NCBI RefSeq assembly: GCF_011751865.2
Contig: NZ_CP061770.1
Coordinates: 1,674,001 to 1,738,000, forward strand
Direction of reading: 5' to 3'
Source of the DNA: Salinibacterium sp. ZJ70
GTDB taxonomy: Bacteria > Actinomycetota > Actinomycetes > Actinomycetales > Microbacteriaceae
Length of the DNA: 64,000 nucleotides
Positions 11,695 through 51,339 of this stretch are shown in pieces. Positions within the stretch are counted from its first letter, which is position 1; every line of letters begins with the position of its first letter. The notes below the pieces were generated by a model. The model did not search any database, was not told where the DNA came from, and saw nothing but the letters and a program-made list of their open reading frames with translations. Position numbers and translations under genes: made by a program.

Positions 11695-12866
<1,172 letters not shown>

Positions 12867-13340: not shown

Positions 13341-15852
13341 GTCCTGCGACGCGCACGATCGCCACACCCGCCTCGCGTGAGGCGTCGAGATCGACGATCG
13401 CGTCGATCCCCCAGTCGTGGTGGCCGGCGGGGTCATCGATGATCTGCCGCACCTGCCAGCGGTCGAGGTGCCGGGCGATGACGAGTCGCGCGGTGCTGCG
13501 CGCATCCGGTCCGGTGCCCATCTCGTCGTGCTCGTCGTAGTAGGCGTCGAGGGCCTCAGGCCACCCGGCGTCGGGGTCGAGCGCCACGAGATCGTCGTCG
13601 CGCTGCAGCGCGGCAAGCTGCACCCGACGCCACAGCTCGTTGCGCACGAGCACGAGGAACGCCCTCTCGTTGGTGGTGACGTCGCTGGGTGCGGGCGGCA
13701 CCACGGCATCCTGCTCGGCGGCCGCTGCGGGGTCGGTGAGCGCCGACCACTCGTCGAGGAGGCTCGAATCCACCTGGCGAACGAGTTCGCCGAGCCATTC
13801 GACGAGATCGCGAAGATCCTCCGTCTTGGCCTCATCGGGGATCGTCTGCCGCGCCGCGCGGTACGCGTCGCTCAGATAGCGCAGCACCAGCCCTTCGCTG
13901 CGTCCCAGGTCGTACAGCGAGACGTACTCCGTGAAGGTCATCGCGCGCTCGTACATGTCGCGCACGACCGACTTGGGGCTCAGTTCGAAATCGCGGATCC
14001 AGGGCTGGGTTGACGCGAAGGTCTCGTACGCCTGCTCGAGCAGCTCGTCGAGGGGCTTCGGCCAGGTGACATCCTCGAGCAGCTCCATGCGCTCCTCGTA
14101 CTCGAGGCCTTCGGATTTCATCGCGGCGACCGCCTCACCGCGTGCGCGGTACTGCTGCTGGGAGAGGATCGGCCGCGGATCGTCGAGGGTCGCTTCGATG
14201 ACGCTGATCGCGTCGAGCGCGTAGCTCGGGTCGTCGCGGTCGAGCAGCTCGAGGGCGGCGAGAGCGAACGGCGAGAGCGGCTGGTTGAGCGCGAAGTCGT
14301 GCTGGAGCTCGACGGTGAGGGTGACGCGCGCATCGCCCGCGAACCCGCCGCCGTGCTGCTCCACGACCCCCGCCGTTCGCAGAGTGCGGTAGACCGCGAT
14401 GGCGCGGCGAGCGAGCGCCGCGCGCTGAGCAGCCGAAGCGTGGTTGTCGGTGACGAGGGCGCGCACGGCCTGGAAGGCACTCCCCGGATCGGACGCGGGC
14501 GCGTCGGCCCCTGGTCGGCTGAGGATCTGCAGCATCATCGAGGCGGTGAAGCGCATCGAGCTCGTGAGCGGCTCGGGTTCCGCGACGATCAGCCGCTCGA
14601 AGCTCGCCGGGCCCCAGTTCACGAAGCCGGTCGGCGCCTTCTTCTTCACGACCTTCCGCTGCGCCTTCGGATCGCTTCCCGCCTTGGCCGCTGCCTTCAG
14701 GTTCTCGATCTCGTGCTCCGGAGCGAGCGCGACCACCTCCCCCGCGGTATCGAACCCCGCACGGCCGGCGCGGCCAGCTACCTGATGGAACTCGCGCGCG
14801 CTCAGGTGGCGCATCCGGGTGCCGTCGAACTTGGTGAGCCCTGTGAGGAGCACGGTGCGGATGGGCACGTTGATGCCCACCCCGAGTGTGTCGGTGCCGC
14901 AGACGACGCGCAGGAGCCCCTGTTGGGCGAGCTGTTCGACGAGTCGGCGATAGCGCGGGAGCATGCCGGCGTGGTGCACGCCGATGCCCGAGCGCACCAG
15001 TCGACTGAGCGTCGTGCCGAATCCGGTCGAGAAGCGGAAGCCGCCGATCGCGGCGGCGATCGCGTCCCGCTGCTCGCGGCTCGCGACCCTCACGCTCGAG
15101 AGCGCCTGCGCGCGTTCGGCGGCGGCCGCCTGGGAGAAGTGCACGATGTACACCGGCGCGAGGCCGTCCGCGAGCAGCTCCTCCACGAGCTCCTGCGCCG
15201 GGACGACGGCGTAGCGGTAGTGGAGGGGCACAGGTCTCGCGACGCCTGTGACCTGTGCGACCTCGCGCCCGGTGCGACGTTCGAGGTCGGATGCGATCGC
15301 CGTCACATCGCCGAGCGTCGCCGACATCAGCACGAAACGCGCGCGCGTCAGCTCGAGCAGCGGCACCTGCCACGCCCAGCCGCGGTCGGAGTCCGCGTAG
15401 AAGTGGAACTCGTCCATGACGACCGAGTCGACCTCTGCATCCGCGCCGTTGCGGAGGGCGATGTTGGCGAGGATCTCGGCCGTGCAGCACACGATCGGAG
15501 CGTCAGGATTGACGCTCGAGTCGCCCGTGACCATGCCGACGTTCTCCGCGCCGAACACCTGCACGAGGTCGAAGAACTTCTCGCTGACGAGGGCTTTGAT
15601 GGGCGCCGTGTAGTACGAGCGCCGCCCCTGAGCGAGCGCCATCGCGTGCGCCGCGATCGCGACGAGCGACTTCCCGGTGCCGGTCGGGGTGCTGAGAACG
15701 AGATGCTTCTCGAGCGCGATCTCGAGGACCGCTTCCTCCTGTGCGGGGTACAGCGGGAGCCCGCGAGACCGTGCCCAGTCGTCGAACGCGCCGACGAATT
15801 CGTCCGCGTCCCAGGGTCGAGGGAGCGAAGAGACGAGATCGAGAGACGGCAC
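13327..15852 (-). CDS. Ski2-like DEAD/DEAH helicase with DUF3516 region
   Basis: The 841-residue protein has a superfamily 2 helicase core: Walker A STPTGTGKS near residue 50, a DEFH box (VVMDEFHFYAD), SAT motif (LMSATLGD) and the motif VI-like HQVAGRAGRAGFD. A long C-terminal region of about 400 residues, including KKKAPTGFVNWGPASFERL, matches the DUF3516 extension of actinobacterial helicases. Its substrate, RNA or DNA, is unknown. The GTG at 15852 was chosen because homology begins there and a CAGACT hexamer sits 6 nt upstream; the frame remains open further upstream without family similarity. Confidence 0.88.
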   Translation of the reverse strand: MPSLDLVSSLPRPWDADEFVGAFDDWARSRGLPLYPAQEEAVLEIALEKHLVLSTPTGTGKSLVAIAAHAMALAQGRRSYYTAPIKALVSEKFFDLVQVFGAENVGMVTGDSSVNPDAPIVCCTAEILANIALRNGADAEVDSVVMDEFHFYADSDRGWAWQVPLLELTRARFVLMSATLGDVTAIASDLERRTGREVAQVTGVARPVPLHYRYAVVPAQELVEELLADGLAPVYIVHFSQAAAAERAQALSSVRVASREQRDAIAAAIGGFRFSTGFGTTLSRLVRSGIGVHHAGMLPRYRRLVEQLAQQGLLRVVCGTDTLGVGINVPIRTVLLTGLTKFDGTRMRHLSAREFHQVAGRAGRAGFDTAGEVVALAPEHEIENLKAAAKAGSDPKAQRKVVKKKAPTGFVNWGPASFERLIVAEPEPLTSSMRFTASMMLQILSRPGADAPASDPGSAFQAVRALVTDNHASAAQRAALARRAIAVYRTLRTAGVVEQHGGGFAGDARVTLTVELQHDFALNQPLSPFALAALELLDRDDPSYALDAISVIEATLDDPRPILSQQQYRARGEAVAAMKSEGLEYEERMELLEDVTWPKPLDELLEQAYETFASTQPWIRDFELSPKSVVRDMYERAMTFTEYVSLYDLGRSEGLVLRYLSDAYRAARQTIPDEAKTEDLRDLVEWLGELVRQVDSSLLDEWSALTDPAAAAEQDAVVPPAPSDVTTNERAFLVLVRNELWRRVQLAALQRDDDLVALDPDAGWPEALDAYYDEHDEMGTGPDARSTARLVIARHLDRWQVRQIIDDPAGHHDWGIDAIVDLDASREAGVAIVRVAGLRRL

Positions 15853-46314: not shown

Positions 46315-46848
46315 ATGTCCGACGACCACGCCGCCTTCGAGGCCGTCTACCTGCGGCACCTGCCCGCCGTCAGCGCCTACCTCGCCCGCCGTGTCGCGCG
46401 CGACGACGTGGAGGACCTCGCCGCCGACGCGTTCGCGATCGCGTGGCGCCGACGCGACACGGTGACACCGGGTGAGGAGCTGCCCTGGCTGTACCGCATC
46501 GCGTCGTACCAGGTGGCGAACCACCGCCGCCGCCTCGCATCGCGCACCAGCGTGCTCGGCTTCCTGAGCGCGCCCGACTCCGCCCCCGCCGCCGACGCCG
46601 CATTCGACGGCGACCCGCACCTCGCCGCCGCGTGGGCATCGCTCCCTGCGGGCCAGCGCGAGATCCTCGCACTCGTCGTCCTCGACGACCTCGCCGTCGG
46701 CGACGCCGCGATCGCGCTCGGCATCACCGCGAACGCCGCGAGCATCCGCCTGCACCGCGCCAAGAAGGCGCTCGTCTCCGCGCTGGGCGAGAACCGCACG
46801 GATATCGCCGCCGGACCGGATGAAAGATCCGCCACACCCGCGACATAG
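46315..46848 (+). CDS. ECF-type RNA polymerase sigma factor
   Basis: The 177-residue protein has sigma region 2 (FEAVYLRHLPAVSAYLARRV, then DLAADAFAIAWRRR) and region 4 (LPAGQREILALVVLDDLAVG, AIALGITANAASIRLHRAKK). Region 1.1 and 3 are missing, as in ECF sigma factors. ATG at 46315 is preceded by a CAGACT hexamer 6 nt upstream. The downstream membrane protein, 7 nt away, is the likely regulator. Confidence 0.85.
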   Translation: MSDDHAAFEAVYLRHLPAVSAYLARRVARDDVEDLAADAFAIAWRRRDTVTPGEELPWLYRIASYQVANHRRRLASRTSVLGFLSAPDSAPAADAAFDGDPHLAAAWASLPAGQREILALVVLDDLAVGDAAIALGITANAASIRLHRAKKALVSALGENRTDIAAGPDERSATPAT

Positions 46849-46855
46849 ACAGGGT

Positions 46856-48172
46856 ATGAACAGCTTCCAGGACGACGCAGAGTCCCGACTCCGTCGCGCG
46901 GCCTCACCGGTCGACGCGCCCGCTCTCGACCCGGCCATCGTGTCCGGCGCTGCAGAGCGCCCCGCCCCGCGGCTCGTGCGCCACGGTCGCGCCACCCGCG
47001 TGGCGGCCGTATCCGCGACCGCTCTCGCCGCGGTCACCGCCGGCGCACTCGTGCTCGCCAATCCCTTCGCCCCGCAGGCGCCGCTGTTCCTCGCGGCCAG
47101 CTCCGCCGGTGGTGCAGCCGAGGCATCGAGCCTCGCCGCCGACGCGCGCATGATGGTGTGGGTCGACTACCGCTACGAAGCGGGGGCCGGCCTCAGCACC
47201 GATGGCGGACGCGGTTCCGTGTACGAGCTGCGCCGCGCGGGCACCCCGCAGTCGGTCCTCGGTTCGGTCGCCGAACGCCTCGGCGTGGACGGCGACGTCG
47301 TCGAATCCGAGTGGTCGAGTGCGGAATACCCCGTCTACCTCGTCGGATCGGATGACGGCACCGCGCCGTCGGTCACGCTCAGCTGGTCGGGCGTCGGCGA
47401 GTGGTGGTACAGCGACCCGGCGGCCTACCCCGAGCCCGTGTGCACCACGGTGCCCGTCGAGGGAGGTGTCGACGGCGAGAGCTACGAAGCGTGCGCGACG
47501 CCTGAGGTTCCCGCATCGGAGTCGCTCGCGCCGAGCGCCGACGAGGCGAAGCGCCTGGCGGCGGAGCTCTTCGACGTCGGCCCCGGAGCTGTGACCGTCA
47601 CCGAAGACCCGTGGCAGACCACCGCATCCGTGCACCTCGCCGTCGACGGGCAGGCCACCGCGCTCGTCGAGACCGTGGCCTGGACGACCACGGGACGGAT
47701 CGCCTGGGCGTCCGGCCACTCGTTCGAGGTCGTCGAGCGCGGCGCGTTCGACACCGTCTCTCCCGCCGCCGGCGTCGAACGGCTCGCCGACGGACGCTGG
47801 TACGGTGCGGCGGGGCCCGACTTCCAGGGCGGCATGGTGGCGTTCGCCGCCGAGTCGATGATGCGCGGCGCCGAGAGCGGCGCTGGCGAGGACGGCTCCG
47901 CTGATGAGCCGATCATCGACGAGCCGATCGTCGAGCCCGGCCTCGTCCCCGACGAGGCACCCGAGCCCGAGGTCGTGCACGTGACGCTCGAGAGCGCGAC
48001 GGCCACTCTCCTGCTCATGTGGGACGCCGACGGCAACGCCTGGCTCGTCCCCGGCTACGCCTACGAGAACCCGGATGGCAGCTTCTGGCACACCGCGGTG
48101 TCGCTCGTCGAGGGCGTCATCGCCCTCCCCGAGCCCCTCGAGGTCGAGCCGCTCCCGGCGGACATCGACTAG
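46856..48172 (+). CDS. Membrane protein, putative partner or anti-sigma of the ECF sigma factor
   Basis: The 438-residue protein has a cytoplasmic N-terminus of about 55 residues, a membrane helix (about 58-80, VAAVSATALAAVTAGALVLA) and a long acidic extracytoplasmic domain of about 350 residues rich in Glu and Val, with two cysteines. The layout, cytoplasmic head, one helix, sensor outside, is that of anti-sigma factors, but no HxxxCxxC zinc motif is present. The gene follows the sigma factor by 7 nt. ATG at 46856 is preceded by AGGGT. Confidence 0.6.
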   Translation: MNSFQDDAESRLRRAASPVDAPALDPAIVSGAAERPAPRLVRHGRATRVAAVSATALAAVTAGALVLANPFAPQAPLFLAASSAGGAAEASSLAADARMMVWVDYRYEAGAGLSTDGGRGSVYELRRAGTPQSVLGSVAERLGVDGDVVESEWSSAEYPVYLVGSDDGTAPSVTLSWSGVGEWWYSDPAAYPEPVCTTVPVEGGVDGESYEACATPEVPASESLAPSADEAKRLAAELFDVGPGAVTVTEDPWQTTASVHLAVDGQATALVETVAWTTTGRIAWASGHSFEVVERGAFDTVSPAAGVERLADGRWYGAAGPDFQGGMVAFAAESMMRGAESGAGEDGSADEPIIDEPIVEPGLVPDEAPEPEVVHVTLESATATLLLMWDADGNAWLVPGYAYENPDGSFWHTAVSLVEGVIALPEPLEVEPLPADID

Positions 48173-48219: not shown

Positions 48220-48431
48220 ATGGCCCCCGTCGCACGTGGGAACGCCAACATCCACCACCACCACCACCACCACCACCACATCATCGATGCTCTCCCCCAC
48301 TCCGCACGATCCGCGCTCGACGTGGGAACCGGCGACGGGCTGCTCGCCGCCGAGCTGCGCGAGCGAATCCCCCACGTCGTCGCACGCTGCTGCGCCGCTC
48401 CGTGGCCCTTTGGCGCAAGCCGTTGCTCTGA
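48220..48431 (+). pseudogene. Remnant of a class I SAM-dependent methyltransferase
   Basis: Starting at the ATG at 48220, the frame reads ARGNANIH, nine histidines, then IIDALPHSARSALDVGTGDG and LLAAELRERIPHVV, the motif I region of a class I methyltransferase. After about 55 residues the frame departs from the family. Another frame then gives RTLLRRSVALWRKPLL followed by a stop at 48429, resembling the C-terminus of such enzymes. The middle, some 130 residues, is missing. I therefore read this as an internally deleted and frameshifted gene. It lies against the first palindrome copy. Confidence 0.55.
48253..48279 (+). repeat. (CAC)9 trinucleotide tract
   Basis: Nine perfect CAC units encode nine histidines in the methyltransferase remnant, where homologues have a single His-rich turn (NIH-x-H). 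It looks like a replication-slippage expansion. Confidence 0.95.
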
Positions 48432-48454
48432 CCGTGAGCCCCCGCCCCCTCGAA

Positions 48455-48524
48455 CCCCCGAGAATCGTGCCTGTCCGTTGATTCAGAGCCCCTGAATCGA
48501 CCATCTCGCACGAATCTCAGGGGG
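48455..48524. repeat. Palindromic element, copy 1
   Basis: A 70-bp imperfect palindrome: CCCCGAGAATCGTGCCTG on the left, a central GATTCAG-AGCC-CTGAATC hairpin, and a diverged right arm ending CTCAGGGGG. It overlaps the last codon and stop of the neighbouring nuclease gene. It is about 83% identical to the reverse complement of copy 2. Confidence 0.85.
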
Positions 48525-49431
48525 TGCGCGCCGCGAGGAGGCGTCGCAAGCGCGATGTGAGGACCGTGGGCCGCTGGAAGAGGTCGGATGCTGTCACACG
48601 GACGACGCGCCAGCCCGCATCCTCGAAGAGCTCCCGTCGCTCCAGGTCGCGCATCCACGTCGTCCGGTCGACGCGGTGAACGTCACCCTCGTACTCGAGT
48701 GCGACGCGTGCGGCCGGCCACGCGAGGTCCGCATGCAGGATGAGACGGCGCCCGAGCGGGACGGCATGATCCACGCGTGGCTCGGGGAGGCGACTTCGCA
48801 CGCACACCAGCCGCAGGAGCGATTCCGGTCGGGAATCGACGCCTGTGCGCAGGCGTGGCACGGCCCACGCCACACGCGCTGAGCCCGGGGACCCTCGCAG
48901 CCGCTCCGCCGCCCTTTCCAGCTCATCGATCGCCACGACCCCCGGCCCGCGCACTCCGCCGATCCGAGGTCCGGTGAGAAGGGCGTCGCCCGCCGCGACG
49001 AGATCCTCACGACGCAGAGACGCCGCGGCCTGACACCACGCGAACGCCGGGCTCGCCACGGGGAGCCCGCCGAGCATCCGCGTCTCGATGTGCCGCAGCG
49101 AGTGCCCGCGCACTCCGATGCCGCGCGGCGGTGTGCGCGGGAAGAGCACAGAGAGGTGCAGATCGTCGTCGCCCTCCGGCAACGGCGCGCCCCAGAGCGC
49201 GAGCGCCGTCCCGTGGCTGAACGCCTGCCCGTCGAGCAGCAGCGGCGCATAGGCGGCGCACCGGTCGCCGACACTGGACAGGTTGAGCCCGAACCCCACG
49301 ACGCCCGTGTAGGGACGATCCACGTCTTCGCGCCGCATCCGGGAGGTGCCGATGCCGAGCTCCCGCGCGTGCCCTGAGCGCAGAGGGACGCCGCTCAGCT
49401 CATCCGGGACGTGCTGTCGGGGTCGGGGCAT
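48517..49431 (-). CDS. AbiEi-like/DUF559 Vsr-fold endonuclease-like protein
   Basis: The 304-residue protein has a C-terminal domain (about 205-300) with VALEYEGDVHRVD and the order ...MRDLERRELFEDAGWRVVR, the Vsr/PD-(D/E)XK arrangement of DUF559 proteins with a Glu in EYEGD and conserved Asp/Arg. The N-terminal part resembles the winged-helix antitoxin domain of AbiEi-like proteins (GIGTSRMRREDVDRPYTGVV). Function is unknown; nuclease activity is inferred. No toxin partner lies next to it. Two inverted palindromes flank it. Confidence 0.65.
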   Translation of the reverse strand: MPRPRQHVPDELSGVPLRSGHARELGIGTSRMRREDVDRPYTGVVGFGLNLSSVGDRCAAYAPLLLDGQAFSHGTALALWGAPLPEGDDDLHLSVLFPRTPPRGIGVRGHSLRHIETRMLGGLPVASPAFAWCQAAASLRREDLVAAGDALLTGPRIGGVRGPGVVAIDELERAAERLRGSPGSARVAWAVPRLRTGVDSRPESLLRLVCVRSRLPEPRVDHAVPLGRRLILHADLAWPAARVALEYEGDVHRVDRTTWMRDLERRELFEDAGWRVVRVTASDLFQRPTVLTSRLRRLLAARTP

Positions 49432-49480
49432 CTCCCGATGGTGCCCGTGCGGGGCCGTGGTGCTGGCCCACCATCCACAA

Positions 49481-49549
49481 CCCCCGGAGAATCGTGCCTG
49501 TTGGTCGTTTCAGGGGTTCTGAATCAGCAATCAGGCACGATTCTCGGGG
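49481..49549. repeat. Palindromic element, copy 2
   Basis: A 69-bp near-perfect palindrome: GAGAATCGTGCCTG pairs exactly with CAGGCACGATTCTC, extended by CCCC/GGGG across a 1-nt bulge, with an inner TTCAG-GGGTT-CTGAA hairpin. It is inverted with respect to copy 1 and lies 50 bp upstream of the nuclease gene and 18 bp after the end of proS. Confidence 0.9.
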
Positions 49550-49566: not shown

Positions 49567-51339
49567 TCAGGCGAGGGACGCCTGGAAGCGGGCGACGACC
49601 TCGGAGGCGGGCACCTCGGTGCGCTCGTTGGTGCGGCGGTCCCACAGCTCGACGAGCCCGTCGGCGGCGCCACGGCCCACGATCACGACCGTGGGCACAC
49701 CGAGCAGCTCGGCGTCGCCGAACTTCATGCCGGGAGAGACCTTCGGACGGTCGTCATAGAGCACCTCGAAGCGCTGCGCCTCGAAGTCGGCGGCTACCTG
49801 AGCGGCCAGTTCGAACGCCACCTGGTCGCGGCCGGTGGCGACGACGTGCACATCGAACGGCGCGATGCCGCGCGGCCACAGAAGGCCGCGATCGTCAGCG
49901 GTCGTCTCGGCGATCGCCGCGAGGATGCGGGTCACGCCGATGCCGTAGGAGCCCATCGTGACGGTCACGAGCTTGCCGTTCTCGTCGAGCACCTTGAGCC
50001 CGAGCGCGTCCGCGTACTTGCGACCCAGCTGGAAGACGTGGCCGATCTCCATGCCGCGGGCGAGCTCCACGGGGCCCGAGCCGTCGGGAGCGGGGTCGCC
50101 GGCGCGCACCTCGGCGACCTCGGCGATGCCGTCGGAGGTGAAGTCGCGACCCGCGACGAGGTGGAACACGTGCTTGCCCTCGACGTTCGCACCCGTGACC
50201 CACGAGGTGCCGTCGACGACGCGGGGGTCGAGCAGGTAGCGGATGTCGGTCGCCGACTCCTCGCCGAGGATCGCTCCCGTGGGCGACCACGGTCCGATGT
50301 AGCCCTTGACGAGTCCCGGGTTCTTGTCGAAGTCCGCCTCGGTCGCCGCTTCGACCGCGGCGGGGGCGAACGCGACCTCGGCGCGCTTCATGTCGACGTC
50401 GCGGTCGCCGGGGATGCCGACGATCACGAGCTCGCGCGTGCCGTCGAGGTGGGTGAGCGCGAGCACGACGTTCTTGAGGGTGTCGGCGGCCTCCCACGGA
50501 CGGTCCTCGCGCGGCACCAGGGCGTTGGCGACGTCGACGAGGGTGGCGATCGTGGGGGTGTCGGGGGTGTCGTGGATGACCGCCTCGGGCTGTCCCTCGA
50601 TGGGGAGGGCGTCCGGGATGGGGGTCGTGTACGCCTCGACGTTGGCCGCGTAGCCGCCCGCCGAGCGCACGAAGGTGTCCTCGCCGATGGGAGTCGGGTG
50701 CAGGAACTCCTCGGAGCGCGACCCGCCCATGGCGCCCGCATCGGCCTGAACGATCACGTACTCGAGCCCGAGGCGCGTGAAGATGCGCTCGTAGGCGTCG
50801 CGCTGAGCCTGGTACGAGGCGTCGAGCCCGGCGTCGGTGTAGTCGAACGAGTAGGCGTCCTTCATCGAGAACTCGCGGCCGCGCAGCAGACCGGCGCGCG
50901 GACGTGCCTCGTCGCGGTACTTGTCCTGGATCTGGAAGATCGTGAGCGGCAGGTCCTTGTAGGACGAGTAGAGATCCTTCACGAGGAGCGTGAACACCTC
51001 TTCGTGCGTGGGCGCGAGGAGGTAGTCGGCGCCCTTGCGGTCCTGCAGGCGGAACAGGTTGTCGCCGTACTCGGTCCAGCGACCCGTGACCTCGTAGGGC
51101 TCGCGGGGCAGCAGCGCGGGGAACAGCACCTCCTGCGCACCGGCTGCGGCCATCTCCTCGCGGATGACCTTCTCGATCTTGGCGCGCACGCGCAGGCCCA
51201 TCGGGAGCCACGCGAAGACACCCGGCGCCTGGCGGCGGATGTACCCGGCGCGGACGAGCAGCTTGTGGCTCGTCGCCTCGGCGTCGGCGGGTTCTTCCTT
51301 CAGGGTGCGGACGAAGAGCTGGGAGAGAAGGGTAGGCAC
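49567..51339 (-). CDS. proS: Proline--tRNA ligase
   Basis: The 590-residue class II synthetase is of the bacterial type: motif 1 region ([20 protein letters not shown]), motif 2 ([20 protein letters not shown]), an inserted editing domain (about 225-390) with [10 protein letters not shown], then motif 3 ([16 protein letters not shown]) and the anticodon-binding domain. The GTG start at 51339 has TACAGT 6 nt upstream, indicating leaderless mRNA. It stands as a single gene. Confidence 0.97.

Follow-up and report, generated by a model that had tools for sequence, protein, structure and literature searches.

The nuclease gene and its two palindromes

A gene lying between two inverted copies of a palindrome was analyzed in Salinibacterium sp. 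ZJ70 (genome G000), whose genome is a single contig of 2.84 Mb. The window, i.e., the whole stretch of DNA under analysis, spans 64,000 nucleotides and corresponds to positions 1674001-1738000 of that contig. The gene encodes a 304-residue protein that is predicted to consist of an AbiEi-antitoxin-like region joined to an endonuclease similar to Vsr and I-Bth0305I. The features discussed below are listed in window coordinates, with the gene and its palindromes first and the neighboring genes last.

48456..48525, no strand: palindrome copy 1, at the nuclease gene's 3' end, where it overlaps the stop codon
49480..49552, no strand: palindrome copy 2, between the start of the nuclease gene and the stop of proS (49567)
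48517..49431, minus strand: nuclease gene, 304 aa, AbiEi-like/Vsr-like (MTES_1575, DUF559-type)
48847..49431, minus strand: codons 1-195, AbiEi-antitoxin-like region, predicted to bind DNA; its divergence tracks the palindrome sequence
48520..48846, minus strand: codons 196-304, Vsr/I-Bth0305I-like endonuclease domain by predicted fold
49567..51339, minus strand: proS, neighbor; six of nine genus species have a palindrome of the window's family immediately 3' of it (only half a palindrome in G005)
46820..48172, plus strand: convergent neighboring gene without a Pfam match, the far-side marker of the orthologous site

The initial annotation had described two inverted palindromes, about 83% alike, at the ends of the gene, the first of which covers the stop codon. 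Both points were confirmed. An inverted-repeat comparison returned arms of 70 nt (48456-48525 and 49480-49549) that are 84% complementary and separated by 954 nt, and copy 1 runs into the end of the gene (48517-49431, minus strand). Each palindrome folds beyond its dinucleotide shuffles (z of -4.4 to -8.1, with none of 200 shuffles equal on either strand), and the 64-kb window has three exact GAGAATCGTGCCTG sites, all of them inside the two palindromes. No T-run follows either copy. Rfam matches to microRNA families stay below the gathering score, and PADLOC returned nothing.

The Vsr-type and AbiEi-like labels of the initial annotation are borne out by the predicted fold; the Pfam matches are weak, falling short of the cut-off (MTES_1575, 30.6 versus 38.2 bits; DUF559, 15.6 versus 20.6). 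The conserved residues of the endonuclease domain, S200, E203, R207, D235, E246, Y247, G249, H252, D262, and R265, are nearly invariant among the homologues. The protein has no Pfam match to Y1_Tnp, and a profile search of PDB sequences found nothing relevant. Where homologues carry a name, it is "hypothetical protein", "very-short-patch-repair endonuclease", or "endonuclease domain-containing", and close named ones come from Leifsonia, Agromyces, and Pseudolysinimonas. Homologues were found in at least 201 of 299 genomes sampled from the family, where up to seven candidates per genome were scored so that counts are lower bounds, and in 94 of 296 sampled genomes of the class.

The decayed methyltransferase of the initial annotation, between the nuclease unit and the convergent gene (∼48220-48495), is on translation a 91-residue open stretch with a run of nine histidines. 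The part after this run contains a putative S-adenosylmethionine-binding/methyltransferase motif, and the stretch looks like a gene remnant.

Bracketing of homologues and dispersal of the palindromes

De novo hairpin searches in the genus and the family revealed like palindromes on both sides of many homologues, with a sequence that differs per lineage. For quantification, 117 homologue loci were scored (24 from the genus, 89 from other genomes of the family, and four named contigs), excluding the fragments L143, L154, and L155 (of 27 genus places) and L160. Sixty of the family loci were taken with omissions from the survey and lean to close homologues, and the hairpin thresholds were fixed after the first matches were known, so that neither this comparison nor that with ordinary genes was blind. 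A hairpin within 350 bp was found upstream of 77 and downstream of 76 of the 117 genes; 57 loci have both, 39 have one, and 21 have none. The window locus itself scores as one-sided, with copy 1 under the threshold. In a control zone 700-1120 bp away, hairpins were present at 0 of 115 upstream and 2 of 115 downstream positions. The two palindromes of a locus match each other with a median score of 38, versus 7 when loci are mismatched, and 54 of the 57 pairs exceed the 99% level of the null; at 23 further loci a hairpin matches the opposite flank. Flank-to-flank similarity of at least 23 was reached by 103 of the 117 homologues versus 6 of 61 ordinary genes; none of the latter has hairpins on both sides, four having one upstream only and two downstream only. 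Two intact-looking paralogues of G000, L055 and L056 (116086 and 2512493), have no palindromes by score, and the L056 orthologue L148 has them.

The arrangement extends beyond the family. In a class-wide sample of 27 loci (one shared with the 117), scored at a looser setting (score 14, 450 bp), hairpins lie on both sides of 15, on one side of six, and on neither side of six; here, L270 repeats L249, and the downstream side of L288 was not assessed (cut locus, wrong gene end). For the 17 loci outside the family, the corresponding counts are 12, 4, and 1. Most of the eight loci of a distant family, f26, carry GATCATGGAG-type palindromes, and in five of six f26 genomes the half-site TTGATCATGGAGAAATCGG occurs between 3 and 20 times; the sixth has 0, and the reversed control has no match. 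Many actinobacteria appear to carry a nuclease gene of this type between two palindromes of ∼55-75 bases that belong to its own family and are dispersed genome-wide.

For the window's palindrome, BLAST with copy 2 identified 11 elements in G000, and a covariance model built from 12 copies recovered those 12 plus one weak match; the copies are dispersed and some are solitary, a possibility that the initial annotation had raised. By the standards of repetitive extragenic palindromes (REPs), this copy number is low. The family is present in six of the nine genus genomes, at 7, 6, 3, 3, and 4 places in G001 to G005, respectively, in addition to G000, and the covariance model found none in G006, G007, or G008 at E ≤ 0.001. 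Two boxes, GAATCGTGC and TGGTCG, are fixed among its members, the spacer varies, and paired changes in the hairpin are in excess (52 cells changed on both sides versus 30.4 in shuffles, with the structure defined from one copy). When 44 copies of two families in six genomes were placed using a crude gene caller, 37 were intergenic (19 between co-directional, 13 between convergent, and five between divergent genes) and seven intragenic, and many were within tens of bases of gene 3' ends. Two weak covariance-model matches in the window itself, at 11769-11841 and 15753-15824 (17.7 and 14.2 bits), are probably chance or heavily decayed palindromes.

Other nucleases have dispersed palindromes of their own. 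The palindrome of a second nuclease in G000 (2320670) occurs at no fewer than 11 places and that of a G007 nuclease at 21 or more, both gene flanks included in each case. Nineteen G007 copies align over about 68-80 bp, and by eye, each half is itself a small hairpin in many of them, as in REPINs. Using the nine genus palindromes as a joined query, we obtained 22 to 86 matches per genome, counting both strands. Exact palindrome-pattern scans of viral and genome contig collections gave no match, probably owing to an overly strict pattern, and these collections may lack close relatives; a loose pattern, CGTGC...GCACGA, was discarded as too unspecific (452 matches in G000 versus 335 for the reversed control).

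Palindrome pairs were also found around other sequence. G000 has two more close pairs of the same palindrome, ∼280 bp apart (L061:3377-3802 and L122:3319-3752). Inside them there is no convincing nuclease remnant, the best match being one of chance level over 17 residues (E 0.003) in one pair and none in the other. At L250 and L263 of G007, palindrome pairs bracket other open frames, with best matches of E 3e-4 and 0.006 among 143 queries; one of these frames is esterase-like by our own reading. Because palindrome pairs in both G000 and G007 enclose other sequence, bracketing is not exclusive to the nuclease.

Palindrome-protein pairing, concerted evolution, and species differences

The palindrome sequence follows the protein and not the genome. 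Among 96 loci with a scored hairpin (4558 pairs, palindromes being considered alike at a score of 15 or more), proteins at least 60% identical have like palindromes in 23 of 27 pairs from different genomes and in the only pair from a single genome. The fraction falls to 14 of 72 at 50-60% identity, 6 of 187 at 45-50%, and 41 of 4249 below 45%. No same-genome paralogues under 60% identity have a palindrome in common (0 of 22), and nuclease lineages keep their own palindrome across genera. The Mantel correlation between protein and palindrome is 0.443 (permutation maximum 0.077), and it resides in the N-terminal domain more than in the nuclease domain: the partial correlation is 0.357 for residues 1-195 given the nuclease part and 0.095 for the nuclease part given residues 1-195 (permutation maxima 0.061 and 0.082). 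For pairs below 70% identity, the values are 0.181 and 0.055, respectively.

Palindromes that are otherwise unrelated have a common half-site grammar, GAGnnGnC..WWW..G, which carries 8.36 bits over 52 arms, where 20 shuffled sets reached at most 5.09. Of the 54 palindromes available, two were too short to be used, and the real set was given eight starts versus three for the shuffles. The half-sites measure ∼22-25 bp, the size of AbiEi-type 23-bp repeats; the antitoxins AbiEi of S. agalactiae and Rv2827c are reported to bind paired inverted repeats of 23 bp in their own promoters.

Copies inside one genome evolve together. Based on 32 of 36 copies, which were also the basis of the paired-change analysis above, arm identity is 0.832 within a genome (96 pairs), 0.736 at orthologous sites (20 pairs), and 0.758 for other between-genome copies (380 pairs), and none of 5000 label shuffles reached the observed within-minus-between difference. 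Copies at orthologous sites are no more alike than any two, which is expected if the copies convert each other or obey a shared trans-acting factor.

Units also vary among species. At the site after proS, G000 has the palindrome-gene-palindrome unit, G002 has the same unit with a gene that lacks its middle, and G005 has a half palindrome, a gene reduced to its last two thirds, and a complete palindrome. In G001, G003, and G004 a single palindrome is present without the gene, and in G006, G007, and G008 both are absent from this site. The comparison with empty sites suggested by the initial annotation thus yielded three orthologous sites that lack the gene and keep one palindrome where the unit has two. 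This pattern fits loss by recombination between the two palindromes as well as gain at a lone one. The proS tree did not resolve the species, and proS of G001 (L101, G001:C1:2432238-2434002) matches in three overlapping pieces, possibly assembly errors in a genome that is 89% complete.

At the second site, the right flank is common to seven species. The left flank has one version in G004, G006, and G008 and a different one in G000, G002, G003, and G007. The nucleases of G000, G004, and G006 belong to one clade with one palindrome type and those of G002, G003, G007, and G008 to another; across the two clades, protein identity is 36-42% and palindromes score 6-13. Considering only well-supported forks, the right-flank tree joins G006 to G008 (100/99), whereas the nuclease tree places G006 with G000 and G004 (100/100). 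The simplest reading of this conflict is that the gene and both palindromes were replaced, or separately gained, as one unit. Elsewhere, one intergenic site carries one palindrome family in G006 and another in G008, and a further intergenic site carries a palindrome in G008 and none in G006. The L144 site was rejected as an empty site between these two species since the G006 contig ends inside the gene. At the compared sites, neither a transposition event nor a target duplication was seen, and by eye no target-site duplication is apparent beside the aligned copies, the compared species being too distant for exact joints.

Proposed mechanism, alternatives, and relation to known systems

The bracketing, dispersal, palindrome-protein pairing, half-site grammar, concerted evolution, and species differences, all observed directly, are in our judgment probably the work of a system similar to REPs and their REP-associated tyrosine transposases (RAYTs) but based on an unrelated nuclease, which binds and probably cuts its own palindromes, with repair of the break copying or converting palindromes and units. 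The gene and its two palindromes would be one unit of a class-wide family. The pairing statistics, the predicted fold, and the half-site size point to the palindrome as the recognition site of the AbiEi-like region, probably with two protomers on two inverted half-sites of ∼22-25 bp. The conserved residues suggest that the Vsr/homing-endonuclease-like domain would nick or cut DNA at or near the palindrome. Repair of the break from another copy would then put palindromes in new places, homogenize the copies of a genome, and cause insertion, deletion, or exchange of whole palindrome-gene-palindrome units at palindrome-bearing places. Each paralogue would hold its own palindrome family, as RAYTs hold their own REPIN families. 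Some observations are left unexplained by this mechanism or are neutral to it, i.e., the palindromes without a detected cognate nuclease in three genomes, the intact paralogues L055 and L056 without palindromes, the palindrome pairs around other sequence, and the frequent position at gene 3' ends.

The strongest of the alternatives, which we nevertheless regard as unlikely, is an autoregulated regulator, in which the AbiEi-like region binds the palindromes beside the gene as operators, the dispersed copies make up its regulon, and the nuclease domain serves a different function. Such a protein would agree with the predicted fold, with the promoter repeats bound by AbiEi and Rv2827c, and with a palindrome sequence that tracks the AbiEi-like region. 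However, palindromes are as frequent downstream as upstream (76 versus 77 of 117), of the 44 copies placed with the crude gene caller, 13 have convergent genes on either side, a position in which a neighbor's promoter is not expected, and just five have divergent ones, and the endonuclease residues are nearly invariant.

It is very improbable that the palindromes are bidirectional transcription terminators that are alike by chance, the alternative given in the initial annotation. They do form strong hairpins, many of them tens of bases from gene 3' ends, but neither window copy is followed by a T-run, two-sided hairpins are absent from all 61 ordinary genes, and five of 44 copies lie between divergent genes. 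Moreover, palindromes are as common upstream of the nuclease as downstream, and the families are dispersed, protein-specific, and alike within genomes. A side role in termination is possible because many solitary copies are near gene 3' ends. Least probable of all is that these are miniature inverted-repeat transposable elements (MITEs) or REPs of an unrelated transposase, with the nuclease gene among them by chance or as a passenger: dispersed, intergenic, near-perfect palindromes do resemble MITEs and persist in the three genomes without a detected cognate nuclease, but nuclease lineages have their own palindromes across genera, and the Y1 transposase (PF01797), the one family surveyed, is found in none of the nine genus genomes and in five of 14 control genomes.

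The initial annotation had likened the locus to the REP/RAYT layout with a nuclease in place of the Y1 transposase, and the dispersal, the matched bracketing, the three gene-less orthologous sites with one palindrome, and the absence of Y1 from the genus support the comparison. In PMC3116915, PMC3733652, and PMC6006769, REP/REPIN-RAYT systems are described as families of dispersed and mostly extragenic palindromes, with one gene per family, set between copies of its palindrome, and two inverted half-sites per element. Likewise, the gene studied here is bracketed by its own palindrome family, a genome has several such families with a gene for each, and the palindrome is present in many, mostly extragenic copies. 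Unlike RAYTs, the protein is not an HUH/Y1 transposase, the element is ∼55-75 bp long with half-sites of ∼22 bp, and the half-site motif begins with GAG, the GTAG/CGTC at the hairpin foot not being seen by eye. Because the Y1 transposase is absent from both the protein and the nine genus genomes, the system is not a member of REP/RAYT, of which it is an analogue in its proposed function. In TIRtrons (PMC3733652), too, a single gene, RAYT-like in their case, lies between long terminal inverted repeats, and these make up moderately abundant families; TIRtrons encode a tyrosine transposase in contrast to the restriction-fold nuclease here.

On the protein side, the predicted AbiEi fold is shared with the antitoxins AbiEi and Rv2827c, but the protein here is fused to an endonuclease and its putative sites are scattered genome-wide. 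At the window locus, neither neighboring gene has a Pfam domain of an AbiEii-type nucleotidyltransferase toxin. With Vsr, I-Bth0305I, DUF559, and MTES_1575 proteins, it is predicted to share the Vsr-type restriction fold, along with conserved active-site residues; it differs from them in the AbiEi-like region in front and in the placement of the gene between two palindromes. No literature tying DUF559/MTES_1575 proteins to dispersed palindromes was found among open-access PubMed Central articles, including PMC3710099, PMC7319586, and one on a Caulobacter Vsr-like protein (PMC12907096), a scope that leaves aside subscription papers and preprints.

More tentatively, fusion of an AbiEi-like region to a Vsr/homing endonuclease may have given actinomycetes REP-like mobile palindromes of their own without an HUH transposase, whereby the protein's own half-sites are cut and repair copies palindromes and sometimes whole units. 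If so, this would be a nuclease-driven route to dispersed palindromes. If each homologue pairs with a dispersed palindrome family of its own, every one of these genes would gain a testable substrate, and many palindromic repeats of actinobacteria may have their origin explained. REP/RAYT would then have an unrelated counterpart, whose dozens of natural variants allow a comparison of enzyme, binding region, and sites, and the DNA recognition of AbiEi-type proteins would be connected with selfish or homing-like DNA.
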